Assembly: GCA_958295805.1 (NCBI GenBank)
Contig: OY282373.1
Location: 1,087,001 to 1,151,000, forward strand
From: an uncultured Nitrospirales bacterium
Lineage (GTDB): Bacteria; Nitrospirota; Nitrospiria; Nitrospirales; UBA8639
Reading direction: 5' to 3'
DNA length: 64,000 bases
Made by a program: the position numbers and the translations under genes. The notes below the pieces were generated by a model. It saw only the letters and a list, made by a program, of their open reading frames with translations. It searched no databases and had not been told where the DNA came from. Shown here piece by piece: positions 9,720 through 62,212 of the stretch (position 1 is the stretch's first letter; each line of letters opens with the position of its first letter).

Positions 9720-9743
9720 TTCCGTAGAATCCATTCCTTCATC

Positions 9744-15146: not shown

Positions 15147-16925
15147 ATGAAAGAGATTTACAATTGGGTACCATGGTTCCGGGAGTTGGCGAGAAACATT
15201 GCAGAAGGGGGCGAAAAAGACCTGATTGACAAGGCGAAGGATGTGGATTGGGCAAAGGGTCGCGCGCTGCTTAAGCCTAAGTTTGGCGACGAAGGCATTG
15301 ATCCGTTTTCGTTCTTTTATTTTCTGGCTTCAAAAAATACTAAGAATCAGCGACCGATAGTATATCCGAGCGTCCACGGGAAATTTAACATTCAAACGGC
15401 ACGGCCAGATGAGAAACGGCCGGAGGACTGTTATATCTTTCCAACGCCTCCCCCTATGGCTGCGGCTCTTTTCCATGATGGGAAAACCTTTCACACCCCT
15501 CTGCTTTGGCGTTTGTTCAGGCAGGTGGTAGGGGATAATCCGAACATTGATCCAGAAGATTTTAAGAAAGTTTTGGCTATCAAAATTGTTGGCGTTACGA
15601 AATTGACTCAAGCCCTGTATTTGATAAATCCCGAATATTTCCTGCCCGTGGATGAATCAGCTAAGGTTGTATTAGAAGTTGTGGGAGCGTCACCATTTCC
15701 GGAGATAATGAAGAGAATTGAAGATGGTGGCTATGAAGAGTATGAGAAGGTTCTCAAAAAGCTAAAGAAAGAATTTCCAGAATGCCAGCCTTATGAAATC
15801 AGCACGTTTTTGCATTTGCAATCTTCTGAGCCATCGGAAATGAAAAAGAGTAAAAAGGGTAGCAGCACATATTCGGCTTTTGAAAAAACAGAGGGCTATA
15901 AATCTTCGTTTGATTTGATTGAAGGTTTGGCCCGTGAAAACGACAACCAGCCACCGAAACCAGGTCCCATGCAACATTCTTTGAACCAGATACTTTATGG
16001 TCCGCCAGGAACCGGTAAGACTTGGAACACTGTCAATTATGCCGTGGCGATTGCCGAAAAGAAGGATGTGGATGAGGTTGAAAAGGAGAAGCGTGAAGAA
16101 GTAAAGCAGCAATTGAAAGAGGGTCAGATTGCAATGGTGACGTTTCACCAAAACTTTACCTACGAGGATTTCATTGAAGGTATCAGGCCCGTTCTGGATG
16201 ATAAGAGCCGAGATGTTAAATTCGAACTGTCCAGAGGCATTTTCAGGGAGATTGCAGAGCGAGCTATCGATGACGAAGGAGAAAATTATGTCCTCATCAT
16301 TGACGAAATCAATCGCGGCAATATCGCCAAGATATTCGGGGAACTCATCACTTTGATTGAGCCGTCCAAACGGCTTGGCGGAGATGATGAGGCAACGGTT
16401 ACCCTGCCTTATTCCAAGGAATCTTTCGGCGTACCTGACAATCTCTACGTCGTCGACACGATGAATACCGCCGATCGTTCCATTGCCCTGTTGGATACCG
16501 CGTTGCGGCGACGGTTTGAGTTTGTCGAGATGATGCCGAAACTGGGTCCTGTTCGTGTGGACTTTGATGGTGTGAATTGTCGGAAGTTGCTGGAGGCAAT
16601 GAATAAACGGATTACTGTCCTTCTGGATCGGGAGCATCAGATAGGACATACCTATTTCCTGGACGTGGAGGATATGAATTCTCTGGTGCGAACGTTCAAA
16701 AACAAAATCATTCCGCTGTTGCAGGAGTATTTTTACGATGACTGGGAGAAAATCGATTTGGTGTTGAATGGAAATGGGTTTATTCGAGAAATTTCCTTTG
16801 AAGGTGGCCTGTTCAGAGATTCAGATTTGATTGATAGGGAGAGAAAGATTTATGAATTGCTCCCTGTGAACGACCCTGCATGGCGACAGCCGAAAAAATA
16901 CCAAACCATCTACAACCATGAATGA
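15147..16925 (+). CDS. McrB-like AAA+ motor protein
   Basis: A 592-residue protein preceded by AAAGGAG. The C-terminal part is an McrB-type AAA+ domain: Walker A GPPGTGKT near nt 16002, the FHQNFTYEDFIEG segment, Walker B VLIIDEINRGNIAKIFGEL near nt 16290, and the signature MNTADRSIALLDTALRRRF near nt 16460. In the known system McrB translocates DNA with nucleotide energy and drives the McrC nuclease. The N-terminal 280 residues, which should recognise the target, do not resemble the classical methylcytosine-binding domain; I see only an SSFxYFLAS-like helical region and a lysine-rich linker. A matching McrC-like gene lies downstream, separated by a repeat and two small ORFs. Codon junctions here lack the backbone ACGT preference, suggesting transfer. 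Confidence 0.9.
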   Translation: MKEIYNWVPWFRELARNIAEGGEKDLIDKAKDVDWAKGRALLKPKFGDEGIDPFSFFYFLASKNTKNQRPIVYPSVHGKFNIQTARPDEKRPEDCYIFPTPPPMAAALFHDGKTFHTPLLWRLFRQVVGDNPNIDPEDFKKVLAIKIVGVTKLTQALYLINPEYFLPVDESAKVVLEVVGASPFPEIMKRIEDGGYEEYEKVLKKLKKEFPECQPYEISTFLHLQSSEPSEMKKSKKGSSTYSAFEKTEGYKSSFDLIEGLARENDNQPPKPGPMQHSLNQILYGPPGTGKTWNTVNYAVAIAEKKDVDEVEKEKREEVKQQLKEGQIAMVTFHQNFTYEDFIEGIRPVLDDKSRDVKFELSRGIFREIAERAIDDEGENYVLIIDEINRGNIAKIFGELITLIEPSKRLGGDDEATVTLPYSKESFGVPDNLYVVDTMNTADRSIALLDTALRRRFEFVEMMPKLGPVRVDFDGVNCRKLLEAMNKRITVLLDREHQIGHTYFLDVEDMNSLVRTFKNKIIPLLQEYFYDDWEKIDLVLNGNGFIREISFEGGLFRDSDLIDRERKIYELLPVNDPAWRQPKKYQTIYNHE

Positions 16926-17332
16926 GATTCTTCGCTTCGCTCAGAATGACAGAGGAGGGTGAGGGACAGAGAAGAAGTGAGGGAGAGAGAGCAATGAGTC
17001 CGGTGGAAATGTCATCCTGAGCGAAGCGAAGGAACTGCTTTTTTCCTCCTTGTATCGAAGGTTTTACCTGGTCTTGTAATGAATGAGATTCTTCCCTTCG
17101 AGGCTCAGGGCAGGCGCTTTGCTCAGAATGACAGGGAAGGCGTGAATGACGGAGAAAGGCGTGAATGATGGAGAAAAGGTGAAGGACAGGGAAGGCATTT
17201 TTGCAAAGGTCTCCGCAAGGGAGAGGGATTTATTGTAATAACAAAGTCGATGGAATTGGACAAGATACCTGACCATGCTCGTTAGTTGGGTGGAGGCGGG
17301 TATTCTAAGTGTTGAGGAAGTTGAGGTCGGAA
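16926..17332. other. Repeat-bearing spacer downstream of mcrB-like gene
   Basis: About 400 bases holding a GATTCTTCGCTTCGCTCAGAATGAC copy at 16925-16950 and the right flank repeat at 17006-17134. The rest is purine-rich (GGGAGAGAGA) without coding evidence. Confidence 0.6.
17006..17134 (+). repeat. Right direct repeat flanking the mcrB-like gene
   Basis: Same element order as at 14853-14971: ATGTCATCCTGAGCGAAGCG, AAGGAACTGCTTTT, TGTAATGAA, GATTCTTCCCTTCGAGGCTC, CTCAGAATGACAG. The direct orientation would allow loss of the enclosed gene by recombination. Confidence 0.8.
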
Positions 17333-17602
17333 ATGATGCGACGAGCACTGATGATCGGGATGGGTTGGGCACTCATGTCCATGATCCTCATGCTAGTGGT
17401 GGCACCAACAATCATGAAAGTCATCCTGGCCGCGTTGGTGATAGCGGATCCGATCAGAACCCTGATGGCAGTGCTCATGACGGTAACGATAACGGGCCTC
17501 ATCGTGGCGGCGATGGTGATAGCAGCGATGATGATGGCGAAAAGACTAACGAACAAACTGGAATCGTTAGTCAACGACGCCCGCGAAAACAGAAATAAGT
17601 AA
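17333..17602 (+). CDS. Possible small hydrophobic membrane protein
   Basis: Start ATG 17333 follows a GAGG at a suitable distance and gives 89 residues. The product is rich in Met, Ile, Leu and Ala with two or three probable transmembrane helices (ALMIGMGWALMSMILMLVV, and about residues 47-70), ending in a charged, coiled-coil-like tail KRLTNKLESLVNDARENRNK. Its TAA is followed at once by the ATG of the next ORF, which favours an operon. Against it, the region is also open in two other frames and the amino-acid composition is unusual. It sits between mcrB-like and mcrC-like genes, where membrane proteins are not classical partners. I do not recognise the family. Confidence 0.5.
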   Translation: MMRRALMIGMGWALMSMILMLVVAPTIMKVILAALVIADPIRTLMAVLMTVTITGLIVAAMVIAAMMMAKRLTNKLESLVNDARENRNK

Positions 17603-17824
17603 ATGGCCAATCTAATTCGACAGGCCTTTGTCACGAAGTTTCCGCATTTGAATCCATCGGGTGATACTCAAGCCACGAATGTGCTTGTGGCGATTATCGA
17701 TGATGTATGTCTTGACGTTGGCGACGAGTGGCCTGATAGCAAACGTGATCGCGCACGGTTGCTGCTCACCGCGCATCGCTTTTTACTCTCGGGTGCATTG
17801 GATGGTAAAACATCTTCTCCTTAA
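17603..17824 (+). CDS. Small ORF coupled to the mcrC-like gene
   Basis: A 73-residue ORF whose ATG directly follows the stop of the preceding ORF (TAAATG) and whose end overlaps the mcrC-like start by 23 bases. The pattern FVTKFPHLNP, an acidic helix VAIIDDVCLDVGDEWPD, then ARLLLTAHRFLLSG recalls phage head-tail connector-like proteins of the DUF4054 group, but that comparison is by eye and weak. It may be a partner protein, or a leader that couples translation to the nuclease gene. No good ribosome site is visible, so it probably depends on read-through from the ORF before it. Confidence 0.5.
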   Translation: MANLIRQAFVTKFPHLNPSGDTQATNVLVAIIDDVCLDVGDEWPDSKRDRARLLLTAHRFLLSGALDGKTSSP

Positions 17825-19064
17825 GGAATACGAAGAACTGAAGGATCTCGATCCGGGCGATGAGGAAGCTCTGAAGGAGTTTGCCCTTGCCAACCAGACG
17901 GATCAACGGGGCAAGTACCGGCCGGTTTTGGCGCTGAAAAACAATCGACTGCACGCGCAAAACTATGTCGGCATTATCGAAACGCGCAAGGAAACCGTCC
18001 TCGAAATTCTGCCGAAGGTGGACTTTGCCGATAGCACCGATAGCACCGATGGCACGGACAGCACGGAACGCACCAAAAAAGTTTTTCTCGACATGCTGCG
18101 TGACTGGCGCGGGTTGAAAGAGGCGCAGTTCAGCAAGACCAGCATTAAGGCCGTGCGGCGCTTCAATATGCTGGAGGTGTTTGTCCACGTGTTTTTGACC
18201 AACCTTGTTCTGCTGACTCAGCGCGGTCTCGCCCGACATTATCAACGGGTGGAAGATAACCTGCCCTGCCTGCGCGGGCGAATCCTGTTTCCGCAGCACA
18301 TTCGTGAAAACCTGGTCAATCGCGCGCGGTTTTACGTGGGGTACGATGAGTTCACCGCCGACCGTCCGGCCAACCGGCTGATTCACAGCACAATTCGCAA
18401 GCTGATCGGCTTCGCGAGGCAGGCGAGCAATCAACAATTGCTGCACCAACTGCGTATCGGCTTCGCCGACGTTCCGGTGTCAACCCGGCTTGAACGCGAC
18501 TGGCAACGACACCGGGTGGATCGTTCAATGCAGCATTACGACGTGGTGATGCAGTGGGTCAGACTGTTTCTATTCAATGACGGTCTGGCCACTTTTGCCG
18601 ACAGACACGTCAACCAGGCGTTGTTATTTCCTATGGAGGAAGTGTTTGAGAACTTTGTGACGGCGTGTTTTCGGCGGCATCGGCAGGAATTTCGCGTCCA
18701 GGAACAGGGGCCGCGAGAGTATCTGGTTCTTGAAGAGGTATTTGCAATGAGACCGGATATCAGTTTGGAACGGGGTGACGAGCGGTTTATCCTCGACGTG
18801 AAATGGAAACGCATTAACGAAGACGACAATGACCCAAAACACGGCATCAGCCAAGCCGATATGTACCAGTTGTTCGCGTATGGGAAAAAGTACGGTTGCC
18901 GTCACGTCGCACTTGTCTATCCGAAGACGAACCGGTTTCGGGAACCGTTACGGTACAAGTTCGACGAAGAATTAGCGTTGTCTTGCTTTCCATTTGACGT
19001 GACGAAGCCGGAAAAGAGTGTTCGTGAGATAATAGATGACCTGTCCCCCCGTGCTTCAGCGTGA
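17802..19064 (+). CDS. McrC-like nuclease subunit
   Basis: I place the start at ATG 17802 (420 residues), because the conserved McrC beginning LLLKEYEEL follows directly; GTG 17793 is an alternative. The C-terminus has the PD-(D/E)XK nuclease core: RPDISLERGDERFILDVKWKR (Asp, then Asp-x-Lys), followed by a QADMYQLFAYGKKY helix typical of the family. A run of DSTDSTDGTDST near residue 70 looks like an expanded repeat. McrC is the endonuclease partner of McrB; here the two are about 880 bases apart. The downstream zeta-like gene starts at its stop (TGATG), so the nuclease and toxin-like genes are probably co-translated. Confidence 0.85.
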   Translation: MVKHLLLKEYEELKDLDPGDEEALKEFALANQTDQRGKYRPVLALKNNRLHAQNYVGIIETRKETVLEILPKVDFADSTDSTDGTDSTERTKKVFLDMLRDWRGLKEAQFSKTSIKAVRRFNMLEVFVHVFLTNLVLLTQRGLARHYQRVEDNLPCLRGRILFPQHIRENLVNRARFYVGYDEFTADRPANRLIHSTIRKLIGFARQASNQQLLHQLRIGFADVPVSTRLERDWQRHRVDRSMQHYDVVMQWVRLFLFNDGLATFADRHVNQALLFPMEEVFENFVTACFRRHRQEFRVQEQGPREYLVLEEVFAMRPDISLERGDERFILDVKWKRINEDDNDPKHGISQADMYQLFAYGKKYGCRHVALVYPKTNRFREPLRYKFDEELALSCFPFDVTKPEKSVREIIDDLSPRASA

Positions 19065-43918: not shown

Positions 43919-44013
43919 GGCGGCCTCGGGGGAGTAGACAAAAGCGAGAGCGTGCGATGATTATAGTCGCGGGGGTTGGACGTTTTCAACGCGGTGTATG
44001 GGGCCACCATTTG

Positions 44014-44098
44014 TCATGCCCGCGAAAGCGGGAATGTGGTGCAGGGGGGCGCGATGAGATCGCGCAGCTACGAGTCCTTCCCGCGCACGCGGGAATCC
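44014..44098. repeat. CCCGCGAAAGCGGGAAT-type palindromes
   Basis: Two palindromic words (CCCGCGAAAGCGGG and CCCGCGCACGCGGG) in inverted arrangement around GCGATGAGATCGCGCAGCTA, which matches half of the 345-base repeat block. Confidence 0.65.
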
Positions 44099-44202
44099 AG
44101 GGGCATGGGTAGGGCTTCCAGGCATGGTGGCCTGTGCGTGGTGCTGACCATTCCCCACCCTTGTGATAGAAGGGAAAAGACGCTGGATTCCCGCTTAAAA
44201 CT

Positions 44203-44317
44203 GCGGGAATGACAAGAGGAGGAGGCGGGAATGACAAGAGGAGGGCGGGAATGACAAGAGAAGGGCCGGGATGACAAGAGGGTGCCGGGAATGACAAGAG
44301 GGGGGTGTGGGAATGAC
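44203..44317 (+). repeat. 20-base tandem repeat
   Basis: Five to six units of GCGGGAATGACAAGAGGAGG with substitutions in the last bases; starts near 44203, 44225, 44245, 44265, 44285 and 44306. The unit derives from the CGGGAATGAC end of the palindrome repeat. Confidence 0.85.
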
Positions 44318-44396
44318 GGACGAGCCACTGGTCACGGGTCACTGGCCACGAGCCACTGGCCGACGCAGGAATGACGGGGGTGAGAGGTGAGTGATG

Positions 44397-44978
44397 ATGT
44401 CTTGGAGGCGTGATCGATGCCGAGGGGCTGGACGGTGGGTTTGGTGGGTGACCGTCATGCTGCTGTTCGGTGCGTATGAAGGCCGTGCATCCGATCGACC
44501 GGGGGAATCCGGGCGAACGCCGGCGGCACACGTTGGATCGGTGATGGCGATGCTGGCCACGTTTGATGAGGCCGGCGTGCTTCCGCCGGAGTCGAGTCCC
44601 CAGGCGAATCAATTGATTCGCGCGCTCATTCAATTCCAATCCGCCTTCCTGAAAAGCTCTGAAGCCGCCGTGCGGGAATTTCTTGCGTCCGCCTTGCAGG
44701 TCCACGGTCGCCAACGGGCACGGGCCATCCTGAATCGTTTTGCCCTGACGGGGTGGACTTCTGAATCCCTTGAGGCGGTGGTGGATTATTCCATGCACCA
44801 TTCCATGTGGGATAATCCAAAGCGGAGCCGTGCGTTTCAAGCTTACAATCTGAGTGAGCGCGATTGGGAATTCGTGCAGAACGTTTTTCTTCAAGCTCGC
44901 CGAAACCTGGTTGGTCGTGGACGCGATCTCCACGCGGTGTTTGCCGGGCATCGTTCCAGGATGCCCGGTGGTCGGTAA
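44397..44978 (+). CDS. Secreted helical protein of unknown function
   Basis: The start is ATG 44397 or 44394 after GAGAGGTGAG; the product is about 193 residues. A signal peptide covers roughly the first 30 residues (WVWWVTVMLLFGAYEGRA). The mature part looks mostly helical (ANQLIRALIQFQSAFLKSSEAAVREFLASAL) with no cysteines and an aromatic C-terminal region (MWDNPKRSRAFQAYNLSERDWEFV). I do not recognise the domain. It is convergent with the following minus-strand gene. Confidence 0.65.
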   Translation: MSWRRDRCRGAGRWVWWVTVMLLFGAYEGRASDRPGESGRTPAAHVGSVMAMLATFDEAGVLPPESSPQANQLIRALIQFQSAFLKSSEAAVREFLASALQVHGRQRARAILNRFALTGWTSESLEAVVDYSMHHSMWDNPKRSRAFQAYNLSERDWEFVQNVFLQARRNLVGRGRDLHAVFAGHRSRMPGGR

Positions 44979-47953: not shown

Positions 47954-49975
47954 ATGGCAGATAACGAGCGTTTCTCTAAGACGCTTCTTCGACGGGGATC
48001 GCGGAGAGGTGGTGGAGTACAACATCAGGGTCGTGTAGGGCAAATCGACTTGCCGGCCGGCTACGGGCAGTGGCGCGGGCTCCGACGGTCCGGGCTAGGG
48101 GCGGTTCTTCTGGTGATTCTGGGTATCCTCTGCGGGGTGGGTGCATCTGGCGACGCGGCACAGGAGAGCCGGAACGAGATGAGTCCGGTCCAATCAAACG
48201 CCGGCGATACAGATCACATGACGCCCTCCATACCGCCGCCGGCATCCGATTTCTGCGCTCGGACGCTCCCAATCTGGTACTGGATTTTGAAAGCGATCCC
48301 GGACGTCTCAGATTGCGCCGACGTCACGGCGGAGCACTTGGCCACCGTGACGAGTCTGGATTTGTCCGGACGGGATCTCTCGGTGTTGAAGGTTGGAGAC
48401 TTTGCCGGTCTGAACCGTCTGGAAACCTTGCGACTGGACAACAATCGCCTGACGACGCTGTCCCCTGGGGTGTTCGGCGGGTTAGGCCGTCTGAAAACAC
48501 TTCGGTTGGACAACAATCGTCTGAGGATTTTACCTGAGGGAGTATTCGCTGGCCTGGGCCACATGCGAACACTTCAGTTAGACGGCAACGACTTGACGAC
48601 GCTGCCCGTGGGCATGTTCGTCGGCTTGGATCGTTTGCAAACACTGCTGTTGGATAGGAACCCGGGCGCTCCCTTCGGGTTCATCCCGACAGTGGAGCGT
48701 ATTGGGGAAGATGATGGATCGGACGGCCGGCGGATCAAGGTGCGAGTGCGCCTTGCGCAAGGTGCGCCGTTCCCCATGCGCGTGACCTGGACGACCGGTG
48801 CAGGAGGCAGGGTTTCGCAAACCGGCAGGGTCATGATCCCGGCTGGCCAAATGGTGAGCGAGCCGTTTGCCGTTGCCGGGCAAGTGGCCGACGTGACCCT
48901 GACCAACATGGAATTCATGGGCATCACCGAGGAATTCTCCGACGATACGGTGCGGATTACCGGCCTGGTGTTGGAAGCAGACGAGTTGCGGCTGATGGCG
49001 GGCAACGTCTGCGGCCGGACGGAACAAATCCAGGACGCGATCATGAAGTCAGCCGGCGTTTCGGAATGTGCCGATGTCACGGCGGATTACTGGGCCACCG
49101 TGACGGACCTGGATTTGTCGAACCTGGGGATATCCGACTTGAAGCCCAGCGACTTTGCCGGACTGTATCGTGTACGAACTCTGAAGTTGGACGGCAACGA
49201 CTTGACGACACTGCCTGCGGGGGTGTTTGGCGGCTTGGACCATCTGCGAAAACTGAGGTTGAACGACAACAACTTGACGACGCTGCCTGCGGGGGTGTTT
49301 GGCGGCTTGGACCATCTGCGAAAACTGAGGTTGGACGACAACAACTTGACGACGCTGCCTGCGGGGGTGTTTGGCGGCTTGGATCGTCTGCGAAAAGTGA
49401 GGTTGGACGGCAACGACTTGACGACGCTGCCTGCGGGGGTGTTTGGCGGCTTGGATCGTCTGCGAATACTGAGGTTGGACGGCAACGACTTGACGACGCT
49501 GCCTGCGGGGGTGTTTGGCGGCTTGGATCGTCTGCGAATACTGAAGTTGGACGGCAACGACTTGACGACGCTGCCCTCTAGGGTGTTCGTCGGCTTGAGT
49601 CTGCAAGTACTGCTGTTGGGTGGCAACCCGGGTGCTCCCTTCAGGTTCACCCCGACAGTGGAGCGTATTGGGGAAGGTGATGGACCGGACGACCAGCGGA
49701 TCAAGGTGCGAGTGCGCCTTGCGCAAGGTGCGCCGTTCCCCATGCGCATGACGTGGAAGACCGGTGCAGGGGGCAGGGCTCCGCAAACCGGCAAGGCAAC
49801 GATCCCGTCTGGCCAAATGGTGAGCGAGTCGTTTGCCGTTGCCGGGCACGTGGCAGATGTGACCCTGAGCAACCTGGAGTTCATGGGCATCACCGAGGAA
49901 TTCTCCGACAATAGGAGCTGGGTCGCCAGACATTGGCAGTGGCCGACGCATTACGGTACGGACATCAACCGTTGA
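47954..49975 (+). CDS. Leucine-rich-repeat secreted protein, C-terminus altered
   Basis: A 673-residue protein with an export signal near residues 46-68 (LGAVLLVILGILCGVGASG). It has two modules, each with a cysteine pair-containing cap (SDCADVTAEHLATVTSLDL; SECADVTADYWATVTDLDL), several 24-residue LRRs of the LTTLPAGVFGGLDxLRxLRL type, and an approximately 100-residue beta-rich segment (NPGAPF...TEEFSD). The second module stops matching the first after TEEFSD and ends in an unrelated tail (RSWVARHWQWPTHYG), suggesting truncation or a frame change near 49910. Such LRR proteins bind other proteins or glycans at the surface. It lies inside the polysaccharide locus. Confidence 0.85.
   Translation: MADNERFSKTLLRRGSRRGGGVQHQGRVGQIDLPAGYGQWRGLRRSGLGAVLLVILGILCGVGASGDAAQESRNEMSPVQSNAGDTDHMTPSIPPPASDFCARTLPIWYWILKAIPDVSDCADVTAEHLATVTSLDLSGRDLSVLKVGDFAGLNRLETLRLDNNRLTTLSPGVFGGLGRLKTLRLDNNRLRILPEGVFAGLGHMRTLQLDGNDLTTLPVGMFVGLDRLQTLLLDRNPGAPFGFIPTVERIGEDDGSDGRRIKVRVRLAQGAPFPMRVTWTTGAGGRVSQTGRVMIPAGQMVSEPFAVAGQVADVTLTNMEFMGITEEFSDDTVRITGLVLEADELRLMAGNVCGRTEQIQDAIMKSAGVSECADVTADYWATVTDLDLSNLGISDLKPSDFAGLYRVRTLKLDGNDLTTLPAGVFGGLDHLRKLRLNDNNLTTLPAGVFGGLDHLRKLRLDDNNLTTLPAGVFGGLDRLRKVRLDGNDLTTLPAGVFGGLDRLRILRLDGNDLTTLPAGVFGGLDRLRILKLDGNDLTTLPSRVFVGLSLQVLLLGGNPGAPFRFTPTVERIGEGDGPDDQRIKVRVRLAQGAPFPMRMTWKTGAGGRAPQTGKATIPSGQMVSESFAVAGHVADVTLSNLEFMGITEEFSDNRSWVARHWQWPTHYGTDINR
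49175..49580 (+). repeat. 72-base coding tandem repeat (24-residue LRR units)
   Basis: The word CTTGACGAC recurs at 49201, 49273, 49345, 49417, 49489 and 49561. Units are almost identical, so this is a recent expansion. A minus-strand open frame across it is a by-product. Confidence 0.9.
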
Positions 49976-52275: not shown

Positions 52276-53805
52276 GTGACTAGCGCATCAGACTCAGACC
52301 CTGTTGGTGTTAGCAAGATATCGTTGACAAATTCTGCCCTGAGCGGGTCGTTCTGGATCTCGACGCAATGGTTTCTGAACAAGCTTGTTACCGCCGCTGC
52401 GACGCTTCTCATTGCATTTTTTCTTTCCCCGGAAGACTACGGCGTAGCGGTAACTGCCTTTGCCGTCGCGACGGTCGTTTGGGTCTTTCTGCCGGAGGTC
52501 ATGGGCGACGTCCTGCTCGCCTATCCTCGACGTCTTCAGCTTCTGGCGCCGACTGCTCAGCGTCTCGCCTTCAGGATTGCCGTAATCAGTGGGTCCGTGA
52601 CGCTGCTCTCAATACCCGTCGCGTTGTGGATATACGATACCTATCCTCCGTTGTGGTTCGGCGGTCTTCTTGCCGTGTTGGCAATTCGTCCGTTCTGTAT
52701 GGCGATGTCCGTGGTGCCTCTGTCGAATCTCCGACAGAAACTTGAATTTCGCCGAATTGCCATGATCGATGGATTTCTTCAATTTGCAGCGACGTTGCTA
52801 TCGGTTGGGTGTGCGGCCGTCGGCGGACGCGGCGCCTCCCTCGTGGTCCCTCAGATTCTCAACGAAGCAGCGAGAGCAGTCTGCTACGTGCGCGTAGGTT
52901 CCATTCGCAGCACTCGACGCTTCCACCGGCGGTTTGCACGCATGCTCATGCGCGTCTACTTCATGGGGGCGGGTGCCCAATACGTCCACAATGTCTTAGT
53001 CATGACAGAGATCGTCGTCCTTGGATACGTGGCTGGAGAATATCAAACCGGGCTTTTCGGATTTGCTTTTCTGCTGGCGGCGCAGGCGAATGGGGTCATT
53101 GCGGGTAGAATCGGAATGGTCTTGCAATCGGTCTTTGGAGAATTGCAGCAACATCCTGTACGCCAAGTCGAAGGATTTCTCCGTACACAAAGTGTGCTGG
53201 GTGCGGTGTGCGTTCCAGTCGCGCTTCTACAAGTTGTGCTTGCCAAGCCATTTTTTGATTTGGTGTTGGCATCAAAGTGGCAGCCGGCCATTCCGGTCTT
53301 TCAAGCGTTAAGTTTATTGCAAGCGTTCTACTTTGCGTCGGGTCCGAGCATGGCGTGTCTCAAGTCGCAGCGTCGCTTTCACGTCCTGTTTCTTTGGCAA
53401 AGTATTCAGATACTGCTGTCGTTCCCCGCATTCTGGTTTGGTGCCAAGCAGGGAGGGGCCGTTGGCGTGGCCATCGCCAGTATGCTGATGTGGTCAATCA
53501 GTATTCCAACGGGGATTTGGCTCTGCACCAGGGTTGATGGAAGAGGGCGTCTGCGTCAGACGGTCAGCGTCTTTCTGCATTCTTGGCTCGTTGGATTGCC
53601 CGTGTTTGCCTTAGGCTACGTGCTGGTGCAGTGGCTGGATAGCTGGGGGACGATGGGAGACGTGGTGGCTGTCACGATAGCTGCTCCTACGTTGTTCATC
53701 ATTGTGCTGTGTATTACCCGATTTGTGAATCGGGAGTTTCAGTCTGTTGCCGATTACGTGTGGCAGGTGGGCTGGCACGGCATCAGGAGCGTGGCGTTTC
53801 GATAA
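52276..53805 (+). CDS. Wzx-like oligosaccharide flippase
   Basis: Starting at GTG 52276, three bases after the preceding stop, the 509-residue product has 12 or more probable transmembrane helices and the MATE/MVF-type start SGSFWISTQWFLNKLVTAAATLLIAFFLSPEDYG. It should move lipid-linked repeat units across the inner membrane. The stop overlaps the asnB ATG by one base (TAATG), so the genes are translated together. Confidence 0.87.
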   Translation: MTSASDSDPVGVSKISLTNSALSGSFWISTQWFLNKLVTAAATLLIAFFLSPEDYGVAVTAFAVATVVWVFLPEVMGDVLLAYPRRLQLLAPTAQRLAFRIAVISGSVTLLSIPVALWIYDTYPPLWFGGLLAVLAIRPFCMAMSVVPLSNLRQKLEFRRIAMIDGFLQFAATLLSVGCAAVGGRGASLVVPQILNEAARAVCYVRVGSIRSTRRFHRRFARMLMRVYFMGAGAQYVHNVLVMTEIVVLGYVAGEYQTGLFGFAFLLAAQANGVIAGRIGMVLQSVFGELQQHPVRQVEGFLRTQSVLGAVCVPVALLQVVLAKPFFDLVLASKWQPAIPVFQALSLLQAFYFASGPSMACLKSQRRFHVLFLWQSIQILLSFPAFWFGAKQGGAVGVAIASMLMWSISIPTGIWLCTRVDGRGRLRQTVSVFLHSWLVGLPVFALGYVLVQWLDSWGTMGDVVAVTIAAPTLFIIVLCITRFVNREFQSVADYVWQVGWHGIRSVAFR

Positions 53806-55661
53806 TGTGCGGGATAGCAGGCATTTACAATCAGACCAGTGGGCAGCCCGTTACGGAACAGGAGTTGGCCGCCATGCTTCACACGATGCCGCACCGCGGG
53901 CCCGACGCATCCGGGACCTGGCGCGGCGCGCCGGGCATCGGCCTTGCCCACGTTCGACTGGCCATCATTGACCTGAGTTCTGAGAGCAATCAGCCGTTCA
54001 CGTCAAGTGACGGCGACGTCGTCATGACGTACAACGGCGAGATATTCAACTATCTCGAACTCCGCAAGGAACTCGAAGGTCTCGGCCACTCGTTTCGGAC
54101 CAACTCGGACACCGAGGTTTTGCTGACGGCATACCGCCAATGGGGGCAAGACGTGTGTCGGCACCTGAATGGAATGTGGGCGTTTGCGATCTATGACCGC
54201 CGACAGGATCTCTTGTTTTGCTCACGCGACAGATTCGGGATCAAGCCCTTCTATTACGCCATGGTTGATGGCAAGCTGATATTTGCGTCCGAGGTCAAGG
54301 CACTCCTCGCGATCTCTCGAAAACTTGCAGCGATTGATCCCAGCGCAGTATCCAAACTGATGCGTGCCAGTATTGCCGGTCACGTTCCCGAGCATTTCTG
54401 CAGAGGCGTTCGGCGACTGCCGGCGGCTCACAACATGATCGTGGAGCGTTCCGGAAGCCCTGTCCTTAAACGTTACTGGGACTACCCCGCCAATATCGAC
54501 CGAAGCATTTCCTTTGAAGCGGCGTGTGAGCGTTTTCGGGAACTCCTCCTGGATTCCATCCGACTCCGAATGCGGAGCGATGTACCGGTCGGTACGACGC
54601 TCTCAGGTGGAGTCGATTCATCGACCATCGTGTCTCTCCTGCGCACTTTTTATGATGGCGAACATCAAGCATTTACCGCGGGATTCAAGGGATTAGAGTG
54701 TGATGAATCCGTGGCCGCTGCTCATCTGGCGAATAAATTCAGGTTGAAGCACCATCGAATCACGTCACCGCCATTCGACTTCCTGGATACACTGACGCGC
54801 ATCGTTCACCACATGGATGGCCCGACGCAGTGCCCGGCCACACTGCCGTTGTGGAACATCATGAGATCCATGCGCGGGCGTATCGTCGTTGCGCTGGAAG
54901 GACAGGGTGCAGACGAATTGCTCGGCGGCTATTACATGCAGGCGCCCGCAGCCATTTTCGACGCCGTTCGCGTTGGTCGTTGGCGACAGGCGGGACGGCA
55001 TCTTCAGTGGTTGGTACGCCATAGTAGCCCATACAGTGGCCCGCTTCGTGGAGGGCTGGAGTTAGCTAGAGCAGTCGTGCCTTCAACTCACTTGTGGTGG
55101 CGCCGTTGGCGGGGAGACGAATCAGTCTACTCAGGTTGCCTGACCGAGGGACCGGACAAGCAGCCGGACCGCGAGGATGCACCCGTCTATCCGGAATCGC
55201 TTGCGAACGAACTCCGCCGCAACCACGAGGAGGGGCTGAGCACGCTTCTCCATTACGGGGACGCTATATCGATGGCCCATTCGATCGAGTCCAGACTGCC
55301 GTTCATGGACTATCGCCTGGTCGAATTTGTCTTCAGTTTACCGGGTGAGTTCAAAATACGGGACGGGAGCGGAAAAGTGCTCCTCAAGGAAGCCGTGCGC
55401 GGTTTCGTCCCTGCCTTCATCCTCGATAATCCCTACAAACTTGGATTCGTCGTTCCGATTCGTGAGTGGTTCCGCGACCGGCCTGACGAGACCGTTTATC
55501 CTGTCTTGCTGAGTGACAGATGCCGTCAGCGTGGGCTGCTTGAGCCCAAAGCCCTGGAAGGGGCGTTGCGCCGTCATGTATCGGGTCGCGTGGATCTGAG
55601 CAGTCAGATATTCCGATGGCTGACACTGGAAGTGTGGTGCCGTCGTGTATTTGATGGGTAA
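53805..55661 (+). CDS. asnB: Glutamine-hydrolysing asparagine synthetase-like amidotransferase
   Basis: A 618-residue protein starting MCGIAGIYNQ, so Cys2 is the glutaminase nucleophile. The N-terminal glutaminase domain (HRGPDASGTW, MTYNGEIFNYLELRKEL) is followed by the synthetase ATP site (TTLSGGVDSSTIVSLL). It makes asparagine from aspartate and glutamine, or in polysaccharide clusters amidates a sugar acid or other carboxylate. It is co-translated with the flippase, which favours a role in polymer modification. Its second half is duplicated as a remnant at 61481-62212. Confidence 0.92.
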   Translation: MCGIAGIYNQTSGQPVTEQELAAMLHTMPHRGPDASGTWRGAPGIGLAHVRLAIIDLSSESNQPFTSSDGDVVMTYNGEIFNYLELRKELEGLGHSFRTNSDTEVLLTAYRQWGQDVCRHLNGMWAFAIYDRRQDLLFCSRDRFGIKPFYYAMVDGKLIFASEVKALLAISRKLAAIDPSAVSKLMRASIAGHVPEHFCRGVRRLPAAHNMIVERSGSPVLKRYWDYPANIDRSISFEAACERFRELLLDSIRLRMRSDVPVGTTLSGGVDSSTIVSLLRTFYDGEHQAFTAGFKGLECDESVAAAHLANKFRLKHHRITSPPFDFLDTLTRIVHHMDGPTQCPATLPLWNIMRSMRGRIVVALEGQGADELLGGYYMQAPAAIFDAVRVGRWRQAGRHLQWLVRHSSPYSGPLRGGLELARAVVPSTHLWWRRWRGDESVYSGCLTEGPDKQPDREDAPVYPESLANELRRNHEEGLSTLLHYGDAISMAHSIESRLPFMDYRLVEFVFSLPGEFKIRDGSGKVLLKEAVRGFVPAFILDNPYKLGFVVPIREWFRDRPDETVYPVLLSDRCRQRGLLEPKALEGALRRHVSGRVDLSSQIFRWLTLEVWCRRVFDG

Positions 55662-55736
55662 GCCTTGATCGTTTATTATGCCGTGATTGCAAGAATCAAA
55701 TGCAGTCTTTTATTGATATTACAGCAGAGACTCTAA

Positions 55737-57734
55737 ATGACTAGCGATACAGCATCCGGCTCTCCTGCGGGTTCCCGCTTCCGAACCGTAGCGGTCAGTT
55801 TTATGACGCACCGCGGCGCACTTATCGTGTGCGGGCTCTTCCTAATAGTGGGCGTTGTTGTTCTTGACGATTACGGCATATCAGTAGACGATGCGCCTCA
55901 TCGTGCTCTTGCCATATCAGCCGTTGAATATGTCGTGTGGAACAATGACCTCTATCTGGATAGCTGGGCCAGGAACTACGGCGTTGCATTCGAACTATCG
56001 CTCCTGTTTTTCGAACGTATCCTGGGATTGGAGGACTCCCGCAGCATCTATCTCAGCCGTCATCTCCTGACGCACATGTTTTTCCTGGCTGGCGGATTCT
56101 TCTGTTACCTGTTGGCAATACGGCTGTTCAACAACCGACTCCTGGCGTGCTTCGCCCTACTCCTGTTTCTGCTTCATCCTCGCATGTACGCGCATTCGTT
56201 CTTCAATACCAAGGATATCCCTTTCCTCAGCATGTTCATGATTGCGCTGTTTCTCATTGACCGGGGGTTCAGAAAGGGTACTGCCGGGGCATTTCTCCTC
56301 TGTGGCGTGGGGGTCGGGCTTCTCACCAATATCCGCATTTTGGGCGTCATGCTGTTCGCCGCGGTTCTGGCCATGCGGGCCTGTGATCTTTTCCATGCCT
56401 CCGGACGACAGGAGAGGAAACACATCCTGATGACCACCAGGTGGTTCGCGTTGGCTGGTGTGCTCACTCTGTACGCCACGTGGCCGTATCTCTGGAGCGA
56501 TCCTGTCGGGCACGTTATCGACTCGTTTACGCAAATGGCGCATTTCCCCCTCTCCATGACAGAGTTATTCCAAGGCGAGCGAGTACTCTCCACGAATCTC
56601 CCATTTTATTATGTTCCCACTTGGATTTCGATCACGACTCCTCCTGTCACGCTCCTGCTTGGCATCGTCGGAGTGGTTTCGATTGTCGGGCGTGGCGTCA
56701 CCCGTCCCGGCGACATCTTGCGCAACACGCCACTGCGCTTCGAGTTTCTGCTCATCGCCTGCTTCATACTGCCGATTCTTGCCGTCGTTCTCTTGCATTC
56801 CGTGCTCTACGGCGGATGGCACCACATGTATTTTCTTTATGCACCCGTTTGCCTTGTAGCCGTGTTCGGGCTGCACTGGCTCATCTCATGGAAACCGTTA
56901 CGGACGGGGATATATGCCTTGGCTGGAATGGGCGTGGTCATGATGCTCGCAGCAATAATTTCCCTCCATCCCCTTCAGCAAGTCTATTTCAACTTCCTGG
57001 TGGATAGAACGACACCCGAGTATCTTCGTAGTTGGTACTCGATGCTCGATTATGGAGCTGGTTCACTGAAAACGTTGAAATACTTGCTCGAACACTATCC
57101 CTCTTCACCCATTTATATAGCTGGAGATTTTTTGCAGATGGGAAACACACGACTGCTTCTTCCTAAGGCGGACAGGCAAAGAACATTTCTCGGCGTCGGC
57201 CTTGATGGCCCTAATTTCTCCCCTTTGGCCAGCGCACCTACTGGTATGGAAGGGATATTCGATTTCCAGACTATCTGGACTAAAAAGGTTTACAATAATA
57301 CTATTCTGCAAGCGGTGAGGCTGGACCTGTCCGGGAGGGGCGAGGCCATGGCGGACGCTCGGCGAAAGATGTATCGGTCAACGGTGTTGGAAGAGCCCGT
57401 CTTCAGTTCCAACTTCGATATCTACTTCAACGACAAGGATAAACCAACACTGACGTACATCAAGGAATCATGCCGTGCCGATGACACCGTGCCGGTCTTT
57501 CTTCTACACGTCTTCCCCGAGAATCCGAATGACTTTCCGGATGAATTCAAGCAATATGGTTATGGTTCATACGACTTTCTTTTCGGCCGTATGAACGGCG
57601 TGATATTCGACGGGAAATGCATGGTGACGGTCAACCTTCCCGAGTACGCTATCTCCCGTATCCGAACCGGTCAGTACCTTTCAGACTATACACAACGCAT
57701 TGTCTGGCGGGAAAACTTTCCCCTTTCTCGTTAA
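55737..57734 (+). CDS. Membrane glycosyltransferase (GT39/ArnT-like), copy 1
   Basis: A 665-residue protein with about 10-12 transmembrane helices in the first two thirds and a soluble C-terminal part. The first loop has VVLDDYGISVDD, which recalls the acidic catalytic motif of polyprenol-phosphate-dependent glycosyltransferases (PMT/ArnT group). The following GT2 gene, of the dolichol-phosphate-glucose synthase type, would supply a lipid-linked sugar. Copy 2 at 58188 is nearly identical, except for patches at residues about 50-80, around 275-280 and 430-490. Confidence 0.8.
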   Translation: MTSDTASGSPAGSRFRTVAVSFMTHRGALIVCGLFLIVGVVVLDDYGISVDDAPHRALAISAVEYVVWNNDLYLDSWARNYGVAFELSLLFFERILGLEDSRSIYLSRHLLTHMFFLAGGFFCYLLAIRLFNNRLLACFALLLFLLHPRMYAHSFFNTKDIPFLSMFMIALFLIDRGFRKGTAGAFLLCGVGVGLLTNIRILGVMLFAAVLAMRACDLFHASGRQERKHILMTTRWFALAGVLTLYATWPYLWSDPVGHVIDSFTQMAHFPLSMTELFQGERVLSTNLPFYYVPTWISITTPPVTLLLGIVGVVSIVGRGVTRPGDILRNTPLRFEFLLIACFILPILAVVLLHSVLYGGWHHMYFLYAPVCLVAVFGLHWLISWKPLRTGIYALAGMGVVMMLAAIISLHPLQQVYFNFLVDRTTPEYLRSWYSMLDYGAGSLKTLKYLLEHYPSSPIYIAGDFLQMGNTRLLLPKADRQRTFLGVGLDGPNFSPLASAPTGMEGIFDFQTIWTKKVYNNTILQAVRLDLSGRGEAMADARRKMYRSTVLEEPVFSSNFDIYFNDKDKPTLTYIKESCRADDTVPVFLLHVFPENPNDFPDEFKQYGYGSYDFLFGRMNGVIFDGKCMVTVNLPEYAISRIRTGQYLSDYTQRIVWRENFPLSR

Positions 57735-57759
57735 CCCGAGGGATACGCAAGATAAGGCC

Positions 57760-58184
57760 ATGAATGCGTTAAGTATCGTCATTCCCGCGTACAAAGAGGC
57801 GGTCCGGCTGCCCTCCACCCTGTGCGAGATTGCAGATTACCTCTTCGGTAGGGTCGATGCCGCGGAAGTGATTGTTGTCGATGACGGTTTCGGCGATGGT
57901 ACTCGTGACGCTGCGGTTCGGTATGAGGAGACCTTACGTCGTGCCGGGGCAACGATCCGCATCATCTCAAACCCCGTCAACATGGGGAAGGGTTATATTG
58001 TGCGGCGCGGCATGAGGGAAAAAGAGTACTCTGCACGGATGCAGACATGTCCACGCCGATCCAAGAACTCGACAAGCTACTGTCCGTAGCCGGTGAAGGA
58101 AATTACGATGTGGTAATTGGCTCGCGAGCTTTGGACCGGTCACTAACTAATCGGCGTGCGCCAACCGCTGTGGCGTGACTTCTC
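57760..58184 (+). pseudogene. GT2 glycosyltransferase, truncated and frameshifted copy
   Basis: Starts at ATG 57760 like the intact gene at 60214 (MNALSIVIPAYKEAVRLPST). Compared with that copy it has Ser to Phe in DDGFGDGT, has lost about ten bases (GCGAACTACG) near 58020, gained ACTA near 58145, and ends where the duplication joins at 58184. The frame fails after GYIVRRGMREKEY. It should be non-functional. Confidence 0.88.
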
Positions 58185-60644
58185 TAAATGACTAGTGATA
58201 CAACATCCGGCTCTCCTGCGGGTTCCCGCTTCCGAACCGTAGCGGTCAACTTCATGACGCACCACAGTGCGCTTATTATCGTGTGCGTGCTCTTTCTGAT
58301 AGTGGGCGTTGTTGTTCTTGACGATTACGGCATATCAGTAGACGAAGTGATGCAACGTGGTCTTGGCATATTAGCCGCTGAATATGTCATGGGGAACAAT
58401 GCCATCTATCTGGATAGCTGGACCAGGAACTACGGCGTTGCATTCGAACTATCGCTCGTGTTTTTCGAACGTATCCTGGGATTGGAGGACTCCCGCAGCA
58501 TCTATCTCAGCCGTCATCTCCTGACGCACATGTTTTTCCTGGCTGGCGGATTCTTCTGTTACCTGTTGGCAATACGGCTGTTCAACAACCGACTCCTGGC
58601 GTGCTTCGCCCTACTCCTGTTTCTGCTTCATCCTCGCATGTACGCGCATTCGTTCTTCAATACCAAGGATATCCCTTTCCTCAGCATGTTCATGATTGCG
58701 CTGTTTCTCATTGACCGGGGGTTCAGAAAGGGTACTGCCGGGGCATTTCTCCTCTGTGGCGTGGGGGTCGGGCTTCTCACCAATATCCGCATTTTGGGCG
58801 TCATGCTGTTCGCCGCGGTTCTGGCCATGCGGGCCTGTGATCTTTTCCATGCCTCCGGACGACAGGAGAGGAAACACATCCTGATGACCACCAGGTGGTT
58901 CGCGTTGGCTGGTGTGCTCACTCTGTACGCCACGTGGCCGTATCTCTGGAGCGATCCTGTCGGGCACGTTATCGACTCGTTTACGCAAATGGCGCACTTC
59001 CCCAACCACGTTTTAGAGTTATTCCAAGGCGAGCGAGTACTCTCCACGAATCTCCCATTTTATTATGTTCCCACTTGGATTTCGATCACGACTCCTCCTG
59101 TCACGCTCCTGCTTGGCATCGTCGGAGTGGTTTCGATTGTCGGGCGTGGCGTCACCCGTCCCGGCGACATCTTGCGCAACACGCCACTGCGCTTCGAGTT
59201 TCTGCTCATCGCCTGCTTCATACTGCCGATTCTTGCCGTCGTTCTCTTGCATTCCGTGCTCTACGGCGGATGGCACCACATGTATTTTCTTTATGCACCC
59301 GTTTGCCTTGTAGCCGTGTTCGGGCTGCACTGGCTCATCTCATGGAAACCGTTACGGACGGGGATATATGCCTTGGCTGGAATGGGCGTGGTCATGATGC
59401 TCGCAGCAATAATTTCCCTCCATCCCCTTCAGCAAGTCTATTTCAACTTCCTGATGGATAGAACGACACCCGAGTATCTTCGTAGTCAGTACTCGATGAG
59501 CTATTATGGAGATGGTTCACTGAAAACGTTGGAATACTTGCTCAAACGCTATCCCTCTTCACCCATTTATATAGCTGGAAATTCTCGTCACATGGTAGAC
59601 ACACGACTGCTTCTTCCTGAGGCGGACAGGCAAAGAACATTTCTCGGTGTCGGCCTTGATGGCCCTAATTTCTCCATTCGGGGCAGCGCACCTACTGGTA
59701 TGGAAGGGATCTTCGATTTCCAGACTATCTATACTAAAAAGGTTTACAATAATACTATTCTGCAAGCGATGAGGCTGGACCTGTCCGGGAGGGGCGAGGC
59801 CATGGCGGACGCTCGGCGAAAGATGTATCGGTCAACGGTGTTGGAAGAGCCCGTCTTCAGTTCCAACTTCGATATCTACTTCAACGACAAGGATAAACCA
59901 ACACTGACGTACATCAAGGAATCGTGCCGTGCCGATGACACCGTGCCGGTTTTTCTTCTACACGTCTTCCCCGAGAATCCGAATGACCTTCCGGATGAAT
60001 TCAAGCAATATGGTTATGGGTCATACGACTTTTTCTTCTACCGTATGAACGGCGTGATATTCGACGGGAAATGCATGGTGACGGTCAACCTTCCCGAGTA
60101 CGCTATCTCCCGTATCCGAACCGGTCAGTACCTTTCAGACTATACACAACGCATTGTCTGGCGGGAAAACTTTCCCCTTTCTCGTTAACCCGAGGGATAC
60201 GCAAGATAAGGCCATGAATGCGTTAAGTATCGTCATTCCCGCGTACAAAGAGGCGGTCCGGCTGCCCTCCACCCTGTGCGAGATTGCAGATTACCTCTTC
60301 GGTAGGGTCGATGCCGCGGAAGTGATTGTTGTCGATGACGGTTCCGGCGATGGTACTCGTGACGCTGCGGTTCGGTATGAGGAGACCTTACGTCGTGCCG
60401 GGGCAACGATCCGCATCATCTCAAACTCCGTCAACATGGGGAAGGGTTATATTGTGCGGCGCGGCATGAGGGAAGCGAACTACGAAAGCGTACTCTGCAC
60501 GGATGCAGACATGTCCACGCCGATCCAAGAACTCGACAAGCTACTGTCCGTAGCCGGTGAAGGAAATTACGATGTGGTAATTGGCTCGCGATCCTTGGAC
60601 CGGTCACTAATCGGCGTGCGCCAACCGCTGTGGCGTGACTTCTC
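58185..60644 (+). repeat. 2.45-kb tandem duplication, unit 2
   Basis: Second unit, matching 55734-58184 over nearly its whole length. The GT2 gene continues uninterrupted past the end of the duplicated part, so this unit keeps the original 3' continuation. Confidence 0.9.
58188..60188 (+). CDS. Membrane glycosyltransferase (GT39/ArnT-like), copy 2
   Basis: A 666-residue near-twin of the gene at 55737. The segment from about residue 85 to 270 and that from 285 to 430 are identical or almost so, whereas three patches differ at most positions: DEVMQRGLGILAAEYVMGNN near the N-terminus, NHVLELF where copy 1 has LSMTELF, and the soluble-domain part QYSMSYYGDGSLKTLEYLL with IAGNSRHMVDT. The changes sit in extracytoplasmic loops, where the acceptor is recognised. 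The functional GT2 partner lies immediately downstream. Confidence 0.82.
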   Translation: MTSDTTSGSPAGSRFRTVAVNFMTHHSALIIVCVLFLIVGVVVLDDYGISVDEVMQRGLGILAAEYVMGNNAIYLDSWTRNYGVAFELSLVFFERILGLEDSRSIYLSRHLLTHMFFLAGGFFCYLLAIRLFNNRLLACFALLLFLLHPRMYAHSFFNTKDIPFLSMFMIALFLIDRGFRKGTAGAFLLCGVGVGLLTNIRILGVMLFAAVLAMRACDLFHASGRQERKHILMTTRWFALAGVLTLYATWPYLWSDPVGHVIDSFTQMAHFPNHVLELFQGERVLSTNLPFYYVPTWISITTPPVTLLLGIVGVVSIVGRGVTRPGDILRNTPLRFEFLLIACFILPILAVVLLHSVLYGGWHHMYFLYAPVCLVAVFGLHWLISWKPLRTGIYALAGMGVVMMLAAIISLHPLQQVYFNFLMDRTTPEYLRSQYSMSYYGDGSLKTLEYLLKRYPSSPIYIAGNSRHMVDTRLLLPEADRQRTFLGVGLDGPNFSIRGSAPTGMEGIFDFQTIYTKKVYNNTILQAMRLDLSGRGEAMADARRKMYRSTVLEEPVFSSNFDIYFNDKDKPTLTYIKESCRADDTVPVFLLHVFPENPNDLPDEFKQYGYGSYDFFFYRMNGVIFDGKCMVTVNLPEYAISRIRTGQYLSDYTQRIVWRENFPLSR

Positions 60645-60957
60645 CGGCAGGTTGTTCCATAGGTACGTACGCCTCCTCACTGGGCTGGACATCGTCGACA
60701 CCCAGTGCGGCTTCAAGCTATTCAGCTACGGGTCGGCCAAACGTATCGCGGGCCGCCAGCGGTGCAACGGCTTTGGGTTCAATGTGGAACAGTTCTTCCT
60801 TGCCCGCAAGCTAGGTTTTTCGATCGCGGAAATTCCAGTTCGCTGGAACCACGAATCCCGAACCAGCGTCAACCTGTTCAATGGATTGACGGCCTTTGCC
60901 GAAGTGTTGCAGGTTTGCGGGAACCGCGTGTTAGGTAAATACGACGGAAGGGAATAA
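60214..60957 (+). CDS. GT2 polyprenyl-phosphate glycosyltransferase
   Basis: ATG 60214 gives 247 residues. GT-A fold signatures: ALSIVIPAYKEAVRLPST, VIVVDDGSGDGTRD, NMGKGYIVRRGM, CTDADMSTPIQELD (the DxD-type site) and DTQCGFKLFSY. The last is typical of dolichyl-phosphate glucose synthases (ALG5-like). It probably charges undecaprenyl phosphate with a sugar used by the membrane glycosyltransferases before it. The start is 25 bases after the previous gene. Confidence 0.9.
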   Translation: MNALSIVIPAYKEAVRLPSTLCEIADYLFGRVDAAEVIVVDDGSGDGTRDAAVRYEETLRRAGATIRIISNSVNMGKGYIVRRGMREANYESVLCTDADMSTPIQELDKLLSVAGEGNYDVVIGSRSLDRSLIGVRQPLWRDFSGRLFHRYVRLLTGLDIVDTQCGFKLFSYGSAKRIAGRQRCNGFGFNVEQFFLARKLGFSIAEIPVRWNHESRTSVNLFNGLTAFAEVLQVCGNRVLGKYDGRE

Positions 60958-60960
60958 CTT

Positions 60961-61470
60961 AACTGGGGCAACATCAAGCGGATTTCCATGTTGCAAAACG
61001 TGGGATTTCAGGTTGAGGCCATTGCGTTTGAACGCAAGGCTCACAAGGGTCGGATGCCGGCTTGTTCTGTCGAGATTGTTGGAGTTATTGCTCATGGTCG
61101 ATATTTGAAATGGTTGATAAAAATGGTGGCCCGTATTCCATTGATCAGGCGGGCCGTTAAATCGAATGATGTAGTGTATGCCTCCGGTCCCGACATGGCA
61201 GTGCTTTGTCTCGCGTCAGGCATGAGTTTTGGCCATCCCATTATTCTTGAAGTCGTCAACGTCCGTGAGTTACAGACTGCCGGTGGTTTATGGGGCTGAC
61301 TGGTTCGGAAAATTGACAGATATCTTGCCCATTCATGACAACTATTGATTGCCACGTCGCGCGGATTTATAGATGATTATTATCGTCAATGGGTAGGGAC
61401 GACAACCCGATCTCTGGTAATCGAAAATAAACTGGAACCTTCCGCGACAGCAGAGCAACACCATATGCAA
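60961..61470 (+). pseudogene. GT4 glycosyltransferase remnant
   Basis: A single frame reads NWGNIKRISMLQNVGFQVEA, then VVYASGPDMAVLCLASG and VNVRELQTAGGLWG. TGA at 61297 and TGA near 61336 interrupt it, and it continues as LVRKIDRYLAHS and QLLIATSRGFIDDYYRQWVG. This is the N-terminal half of a GT4-like (GT-B fold) enzyme without its first residues and without its donor-binding half. It then runs into the duplicated asnB fragment. Confidence 0.75.
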
Positions 61471-61480
61471 GGAACCGACG

Positions 61481-62212
61481 GCTATTACACGCAGGCGCCT
61501 GCGGCCGTTTTCGATGCCGTTCGCGCTGGTCGTTGGCGACAGGCGGGACGGCATCTTCAGTGGCTTGTACGCCAGAGTAGCCCGTACAGTGGCCCGCTTC
61601 GTGGCGGGCTGGAGTTAGCCAGAGCAGTCGTGCCTTCAGCTCACTTGTGGTGGCGCCGTTGGCGGGGAGACGAATCAGTCTACTCAGGTTGCCTGACCGA
61701 GGGACCGGACAAGCAGCCGGACCGCGAGGATGCGCCCGTCTATCCGGAATTGCTTGCGAACGAACTCCGCCGCAACCACGAGGGGGGGGCTGAGCACGCT
61801 TCTCCATTACGGGGACGCTATATCGATGGCCCATTCGATCGAGTCCAGACTGCCGTTCATGGACTATCGCCTGGTCGAATTTGTCTTCAGTTTACCGGGT
61901 GAGTTCAAAATACGGGACGGGGACGGGAAAGTGCTCCTCAAGGAAGCCGTGCGCGGTTTTGTCCCTGACTTCATCCTTGATAATCCCTACAAGCTTGGAT
62001 TCGTCGTCCCGATTCGTGAGTGGTTTCGCGACCAGTCTGATGAGACCGTCTATCCCGTCTTGCTGAGTGACAGGTGCCGTCAGCGTGGGCTGTTTGAGCC
62101 CAAAGCCCTGGAACGGGCGTTGCGCCGTCATGTATCGGGTCGTGTGGATCTGAGCAGTCAGATATTCCGATGGCTGACACTGGAAGTGTGGTGCCAGGAA
62201 TTATTTGACTGA
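61481..62212 (+). pseudogene. Duplicated 3' half of asnB
   Basis: Matches asnB from about 54927 to its end (GYYTQAPAAVFDAVRAGRW... to SSQIFRWLTLEVWC). A G8 run near 61783, where asnB has GGAGGGG, adds one base and breaks the frame. The N-terminal glutaminase and ATP-binding half are absent, so the copy cannot be functional. It shows that recombination used this part of the locus. Confidence 0.88.

Follow-up and report, generated by a model that had tools for sequence, protein, structure and literature searches.

Tandem GT-C glycosyltransferase paralogues of an uncultured Nitrospirales bacterium appear to have been diversified in their loops around a constant core

How did two adjacent copies of one membrane glycosyltransferase gene come to share long identical tracts and to differ in a few confined zones? 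The question is raised by a 64-kb stretch of DNA (the window; positions 1,087,001-1,151,000 of a single 2.90-Mb contig) in which a first-pass annotation had described a 2.45-kb tandem duplication. The duplication is present, and alignment over the whole unit defines its two exact parts, which differ by 79 substitutions plus small indels. Each unit contains a 665- or 666-codon gene for a PMT_2-type membrane glycosyltransferase, followed by a family 2 glycosyltransferase (GT2) gene of the gtrB/DPM1 type; this second gene extends the earlier account, as does an additional local duplication of the 3' half of the neighboring asnB gene. The features are as follows (window coordinates):

53805-55661, plus strand: intact asparagine-synthase-like gene of the asnB type (Pfam PF00733 and PF13537; TIGR01536), the upstream neighbor.
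55731-58184, plus strand: unit A of the tandem duplication, 2454 bp, with 96.8% identity to unit B.
55737-57734, plus strand: copy A, a PMT_2 GT-C membrane glycosyltransferase of 665 aa, whose catalytic motif is Asp-Asp, not Asp-Glu.
57321-57734 (copy A) and 59775-60188 (copy B), plus strand: C-terminal accessory domain of ~120 aa, assigned to no Pfam family.
57760-58184, plus strand: remnant of a gtrB/DPM1-like polyprenyl-phosphate-sugar synthase gene, its 3' end lost at the junction, with a 10-bp deletion and a frameshift.
58182-60644, plus strand: unit B of the tandem duplication, 2463 bp, overlapping unit A by 3 bp (CTC).
58188-60188, plus strand: copy B, a PMT_2 GT-C membrane glycosyltransferase of 666 aa with the canonical DDYG...DE motif.
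60214-60957, plus strand: intact gtrB/DPM1-like glycosyltransferase of family 2 (PF00535), the probable donor synthase for both copies.
61490-62195, plus strand: frameshifted duplicate of the asnB 3' half, downstream of the units, ~95% identical (silent divergence 0.11).

The junction between the units falls inside gtrB and reads ...GACTTCTCTAAATG...; the right end of unit B is ...GACTTCTC followed by CGGC, and the left end of unit A is CTCTAAATG preceded by ...GAGA. CTC is the sole sequence common to both ends, as would be expected of a microhomology-mediated tandem duplication. An assembly error would here mean two strain haplotypes placed end to end, and a perfect 7186-bp tandem repeat elsewhere in the same genome speaks for such an artefact. 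Against it, the junction offers 3 bp of common sequence when assemblers need longer overlaps, each unit has private changes (the 10-bp deletion among them), and the same tandem arrangement is found again in other genomes. Because a 3-bp overlap on a single contig of this size could hardly have been joined without reads spanning it, we regard an artefact as very unlikely indeed.

The intact gtrB gene is the only full copy in the genome, and its NCBIfam matches (EpsD, ArnC-type and dolichyl-phosphate hexose transferases) all lie below the cut-offs. A candidate GT2 polyprenyl-phosphate-sugar synthase is found beside a GT-C pair, the arrangement that marks three-component systems. No GtrA- or MATE-type flippase family was recognized among the genes scanned at 53-64 kb; a MOP-type flippase is encoded at 52276-53802 and probably serves the polymer. 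Downstream, the region 60988-62212 joins the frameshifted asnB 3' half to an apparent broken glycosyltransferase of the family 4 type (no Pfam match), the residue of another duplication. Two further open reading frames (ORFs) of the window are repetitive: a large leucine-rich-repeat-like ORF at 47954-49975, which immediately precedes the polysaccharide genes and contains tandem repeats of 24 residues that are nearly identical (LTTLPAGVFGGLDRLR), and a minus-strand ORF of proline-rich repeats (LVIPA, SFPxPSCHPG) at 43986-44951, which resembles translated dispersed palindromic repeats more than a real protein.

Between the two glycosyltransferase genes, 58 codons differ: 46 by amino-acid replacement, 11 silently and one by an indel. 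The differences are strongly clustered. The units share identical runs of 538, 439 and 303 bases, the longest well above the null expectation (mean 149 nt, maximum 417 in 20,000 shuffles), and the dispersion index of differences in 50-bp bins is 4.2, as against a null mean of 0.98 and maximum of 2.13; the even distribution that an identity plot along the sequence might have revealed is not what is seen. The differences fall into five zones:

55743-55847, plus strand: zone 1, codons 3-37 (the N-terminus and the start of TM1), with five silent codons, five replacements and a one-codon indel.
55890-56006, plus strand: zone 2, residues 53-91, the TM1-TM2 loop (loop 1) with the catalytic DE motif; 14 replacements and no silent-only codon.
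56541-56561, plus strand: zone 3, residues 273-276, four successive residues all changed (LSMT in one copy, NHVL in the other).
57000-57317, plus strand: zone 4, B residues 423-528, the soluble region after the last TM helix, as read from the codon table and the model.
57534-57587, plus strand: zone 5, B residues 601-618, within the C-terminal domain; three replacements.

The copies had been said to differ at most residues in three short patches. Clustering far beyond chance stands, but the zones number five, the N-terminus and residues 601-618 among them, and it is only the four-residue patch 273-276 that differs at most of its residues; the changed fraction is 14 of 39 residues in loop 1 and about one in five in zone 423-528. 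Each of the four adjacent codons of zone 3 is replaced with at least two base changes, and in the structural model of copy B the zone sits in a long loop predicted between helices 257-267 and 304-323. From the fold, it is plausible that the variable loops, which are themselves poorly modelled, converge on one cleft. Between the zones, residues 92-269 and 277-422 (B numbering) are identical, with a single silent change at 270, and these cores hold no silent change at ~241 sites, so that the long identity does extend to silent positions, as originally described. A diversity-generating retroelement is rejected as the source of the variation: there is no adenine bias, and the substitutions (46 transitions and 33 transversions) are spread over all base pairs.

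The silent sites are what separate the possible histories. Drift after a simple duplication had been expected to spread the changes, and even drift is rejected here by the clustering of all changes and, independently of any replacement, by that of the silent ones: 7 of ~28 silent sites have changed in codons 1-37, as against none of the ~241 in the two cores (Fisher 6e-8). This contrast calls for recombination, at least for the N-terminal tract. A neutral yardstick is provided by the gtrB fragment of unit A, which is dead and should therefore have drifted since the duplication; it differs at 5 of 422 bp (1.2%). On this clock, 0.34 silent changes are expected in codons 1-37, where 7 are found (P=7e-8), and 4.2 replacements are expected in the three main patches, where 48.5 are found (~12-fold). 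The cores, with 0 silent changes against 2.9 expected, are only marginally unusual (P=0.057), so active homogenization of the core is not required at this locus.

The replacements tell a complementary story. Replacements exceed silent changes per site in the pooled patches (pN 0.138 vs pS 0.052, P=0.015), in loop 1 (0.17 vs 0.024, P=0.06) and over codons 38-485 (P=0.002), P-values that are indicative, the patches having been delimited after inspection and the silent counts being small. Because replacements outnumber silent changes per site in the pooled patches, a very diverged donor would probably not suffice as the sole source, and selection for change was probably at work as well; the loop patches call for recombination with a selected allele or, failing that, for strong selection. 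Could a recent tandem duplication account for everything, given strong positive selection on one copy or on both and no later recombination? The replacement excess in loop 1 and codons 38-485 is what this would produce, and the gtrB clock comes near to allowing a core with no silent divergence, but protein-level selection could hardly have piled up the silent changes of codons 1-37, nor does it sit easily with four adjacent codons at 273-276 that have each taken at least two base changes. We consider selection without recombination quite unlikely.

A different possibility keeps recombination and changes its partner: one copy would have taken its N-terminal tract and the other patches from a related strain, or else from a third copy since lost, such as the unit whose trace downstream is the ~5% diverged asnB fragment. 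Such a history varies the explanation that we prefer by taking a donor other than the sister copy. The silent divergence of codons 1-37 (0.25) is within a few-fold of that between asnB and its fragment, both being far above the 0 of the core, and the family is patchily distributed and has evidently moved across phyla. The donor, however, is absent from everything searched, and loop 1, with almost no silent change, does not look like a diverged import. We lean against import while taking it seriously.

The donor searches themselves were negative: neither version of any patch was matched in the genome, in 58 relatives or in 294 further genomes of the phylum. Within the genome, protein and DNA searches returned only the sister copy, two fragments of ~51% identity in the 7.2-kb repeat, and the C-terminal domain elsewhere. 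Homologues were absent from the 58 genomes of the same genus, family and order; the 294 other sampled genomes of the phylum gave one weak homologue and no patch donor, and no relative was found in the viral contigs searched.

The nearest homologues found elsewhere lie on a Dehalococcoidia MAG chromosome (OY282355.1; 43-48% identity) and in a Bacteroidetes MAG (33-37%), where two copies are adjacent. The Dehalococcoidia genome holds 16 full-length paralogues, four of them in one tandem array, and a second genome of the class holds 11 copies with similar mosaics. These paralogues display the mosaic of the window pair at higher divergence, with the same zones variable. In the tandem array (contig region L026; D2, 3760-5709; D3, 5992-8031; D4, 8134-10140), the silent divergence between D3 and D4 reaches 0.55 in loop 1, compared with 0.07-0.09 in the cores (Fisher 5.6e-9), so that silent divergence is heterogeneous along the gene here as it is in the window pair. 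The dips in D3/D4 identity match the zones of the window pair (Spearman 0.47 over 32 windows, a value reached by one of 31 circular shifts), and the sites replaced between A and B sit on the most variable columns of the Dehalococcoidia paralogue alignment (P=1.3e-7). D3 is a clear recombinant: over residues 47-100 it agrees with D2 at 45 of the 47 informative sites (P<5e-5), and its N-terminus and most of the remainder match D4. This loop-1 exchange between tandem copies demonstrates that transfer of loop cassettes occurs in the family. In zone 269-277, replacements often exceed silent changes between paralogues, on a base of only about four silent sites. Of the earlier proposal of gene conversion or import of loop cassettes, the need for recombination is thus borne out, with a direct precedent in the Dehalococcoidia array; the proposal stands without a donor for the window patches.

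Both copies match Pfam PMT_2 (31.1 and 31.2 bits; curated cut-off 26.1). An AlphaFold model of copy B, built from 7 sequences (mean pLDDT 58.7, pTM 0.53; confidence moderate overall and low in the variable loops), has the GT-C fold, with Z-scores of 21-22 to OST (oligosaccharyltransferase), ALG12 and Pmt1/2/4 and of 18.6 to ArnT, over 370-430 residues. In PMTs, the invariant DE motif of the TM1-TM2 loop is the catalytic motif (PMC12705809). The corresponding acidic motif is DDYG...DE in copy B and most relatives and DD in copy A; the Glu, which is Asp in copy A, is kept in 17 of 19 relatives. Copy A departs from several other conserved residues as well, and the strongly conserved family residues that it has lost include E53, Q56, Q434, Y439, Y515 and L601. 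Judged by the Asp-Asp motif and these changes, copy A would be the more altered enzyme and may be neofunctionalized or impaired.

Is copy A, then, simply a decaying duplicate whose changes reflect relaxed constraint? The gtrB gene of its unit is dead, and the loss of conserved residues is what decay would bring about, but the 665-codon frame of copy A is intact and its core unchanged, and decay would not be expected to spare long core tracts while altering loops. Copy B, moreover, likewise deviates at a conserved site (V423, 18 of 20). Decay therefore seems unlikely to us. As to polarity, the idea that one copy is uniformly derived is rejected, the family-like state being split between the copies at 18 versus 16 sites.

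The C-terminal domain has a distribution of its own. It is modelled as a small beta-sandwich (pLDDT 86.5) with weak fold matches to Ig/FnIII-like or CBM-like domains (best Z 7.9; no Foldseek E below 0.03), and follows the pattern S.FD.Y...L.Y.K..C...D...FDGKC...LP.Y.I..I.TGQ. The domain has 27 matches in the genome (including loci L028-L036 and L070-L093) and none in 13 congeners. It is fused to GDSL/SGNH hydrolases, an arylsulfotransferase, and PMT_2-like and unassigned membrane proteins, and in the Dehalococcoidia genome there are dozens of such domains, frequently two or three in one protein; it has the look of an unnamed envelope domain acquired by lateral transfer. The perfect 7186-bp tandem duplication (L028 2673-17165; genome 1,768,672-1,783,164; 7307 identical bases at that shift), which is either very recent or an assembly effect, carries arylsulfotransferase and glycosyltransferase genes with the same domain, including glycosyltransferase fragments that are 51% identical to copies A and B and lack the N-terminus. 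L029 6727-16532 holds GDSL/SGNH hydrolases and other membrane proteins in an array whose ORFs at 9850-11256 and 14853-16532 carry near-identical C-terminal domains on unrelated N-terminal parts, suggesting domain shuffling. A further L029 ORF, at 16635-18905, is carbamoyltransferase-like, with a long low-complexity insertion (QSSGGA/QSSDGA repeats, then a CHSRESGNP motif), apparently an inserted repeat element.

Taken together, the evidence makes it reasonably probable that these tandem GT-C paralogues were diversified in their loops by exchange and selection around a constant core. A microhomology-mediated tandem duplication first copied the enzyme gene together with part of the synthase gene. 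Recombination, to which the silent sites point, would then have joined alleles or paralogues into the mosaic that is seen, with an identical transmembrane core and with differences in the N-terminus, catalytic loop 1, the short loop 273-276 and the soluble C-terminal region, and selection for a new specificity would have added amino-acid changes in the loops, as the replacement excess and the recurrence in relatives suggest. For GT-C enzymes of this kind, the sugar donor is polyprenyl-phosphate-linked. The gtrB/DPM1-like neighbor would make such a donor for both GT-Cs, which would transfer the sugar to a surface glycan or another acceptor on the outer side of the membrane. Two acceptor or donor specificities had been suggested; since only one intact donor synthase gene remains, acceptor is likelier than donor, and we infer that the two enzymes most likely take the same lipid-linked sugar to different acceptors or linkage sites.

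A pair identical save for a few outward-facing zones, together with a naturally loop-swapped relative, is a ready-made test of the parts of a GT-C enzyme that govern acceptor specificity, and loop swaps between A and B would reveal which loop picks the acceptor. That the pattern recurs in unrelated genomes suggests that this is a general way for bacteria to vary the glycans of their surface. More tentatively, the family as a whole could possibly be a horizontally spread one that multiplies in tandem in some bacteria and diversifies their surface sugars through exchanged and selected loop cassettes round a constant catalytic core; on that same doubtful reading, it would parallel, among glycosyltransferases, the antigenic variation that gene conversion brings about.

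The enzyme class and its donor logic are already known, as is gene conversion between paralogues; loop-level mosaic diversification of a GT-C family across phyla was not found in the literature searched, which was covered in part. Protein O-mannosyltransferases and ArnT (PMT/PMT_2) share with the window enzymes the GT-C fold, the Asp-Glu motif between TM1 and TM2 (in copy B) and the expected polyprenyl-phosphate donor, whereas the window enzymes carry the unnamed ~120-aa C-terminal domain, and a sequence search with them gave no solved structure. The surface protein SabA of H. pylori is diversified by gene conversion, according to its mention in PMC9136243; there, too, paralogues swap segments, so that some parts vary and the remainder stays similar, but in the window it is the loops of a glycan-making enzyme, not an adhesin, that are diversified, and no switching has been observed. 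A close parallel is with GtrABC-type O-antigen glucosylation and other three-component extracytoplasmic systems, in which a GT2 polyprenyl-phosphate-sugar synthase likewise lies beside a GT-C; the synthase makes the donor and the GT-C sets acceptor and linkage, and in Shigella gtrA and gtrB are interchangeable among serotypes and the GT-C is specific (PMC3259042, PMC11127046). In those systems, too, the synthase is conserved and the GT-C variable, and periplasmic loops matter and are thought to set specificity. The window differs in that its glycosyltransferases are PMT_2-like, no GtrA-like flippase was recognized beside the pair, the locus is known from sequence, and two near-identical GT-Cs, differing only in limited zones, share one intact synthase gene.
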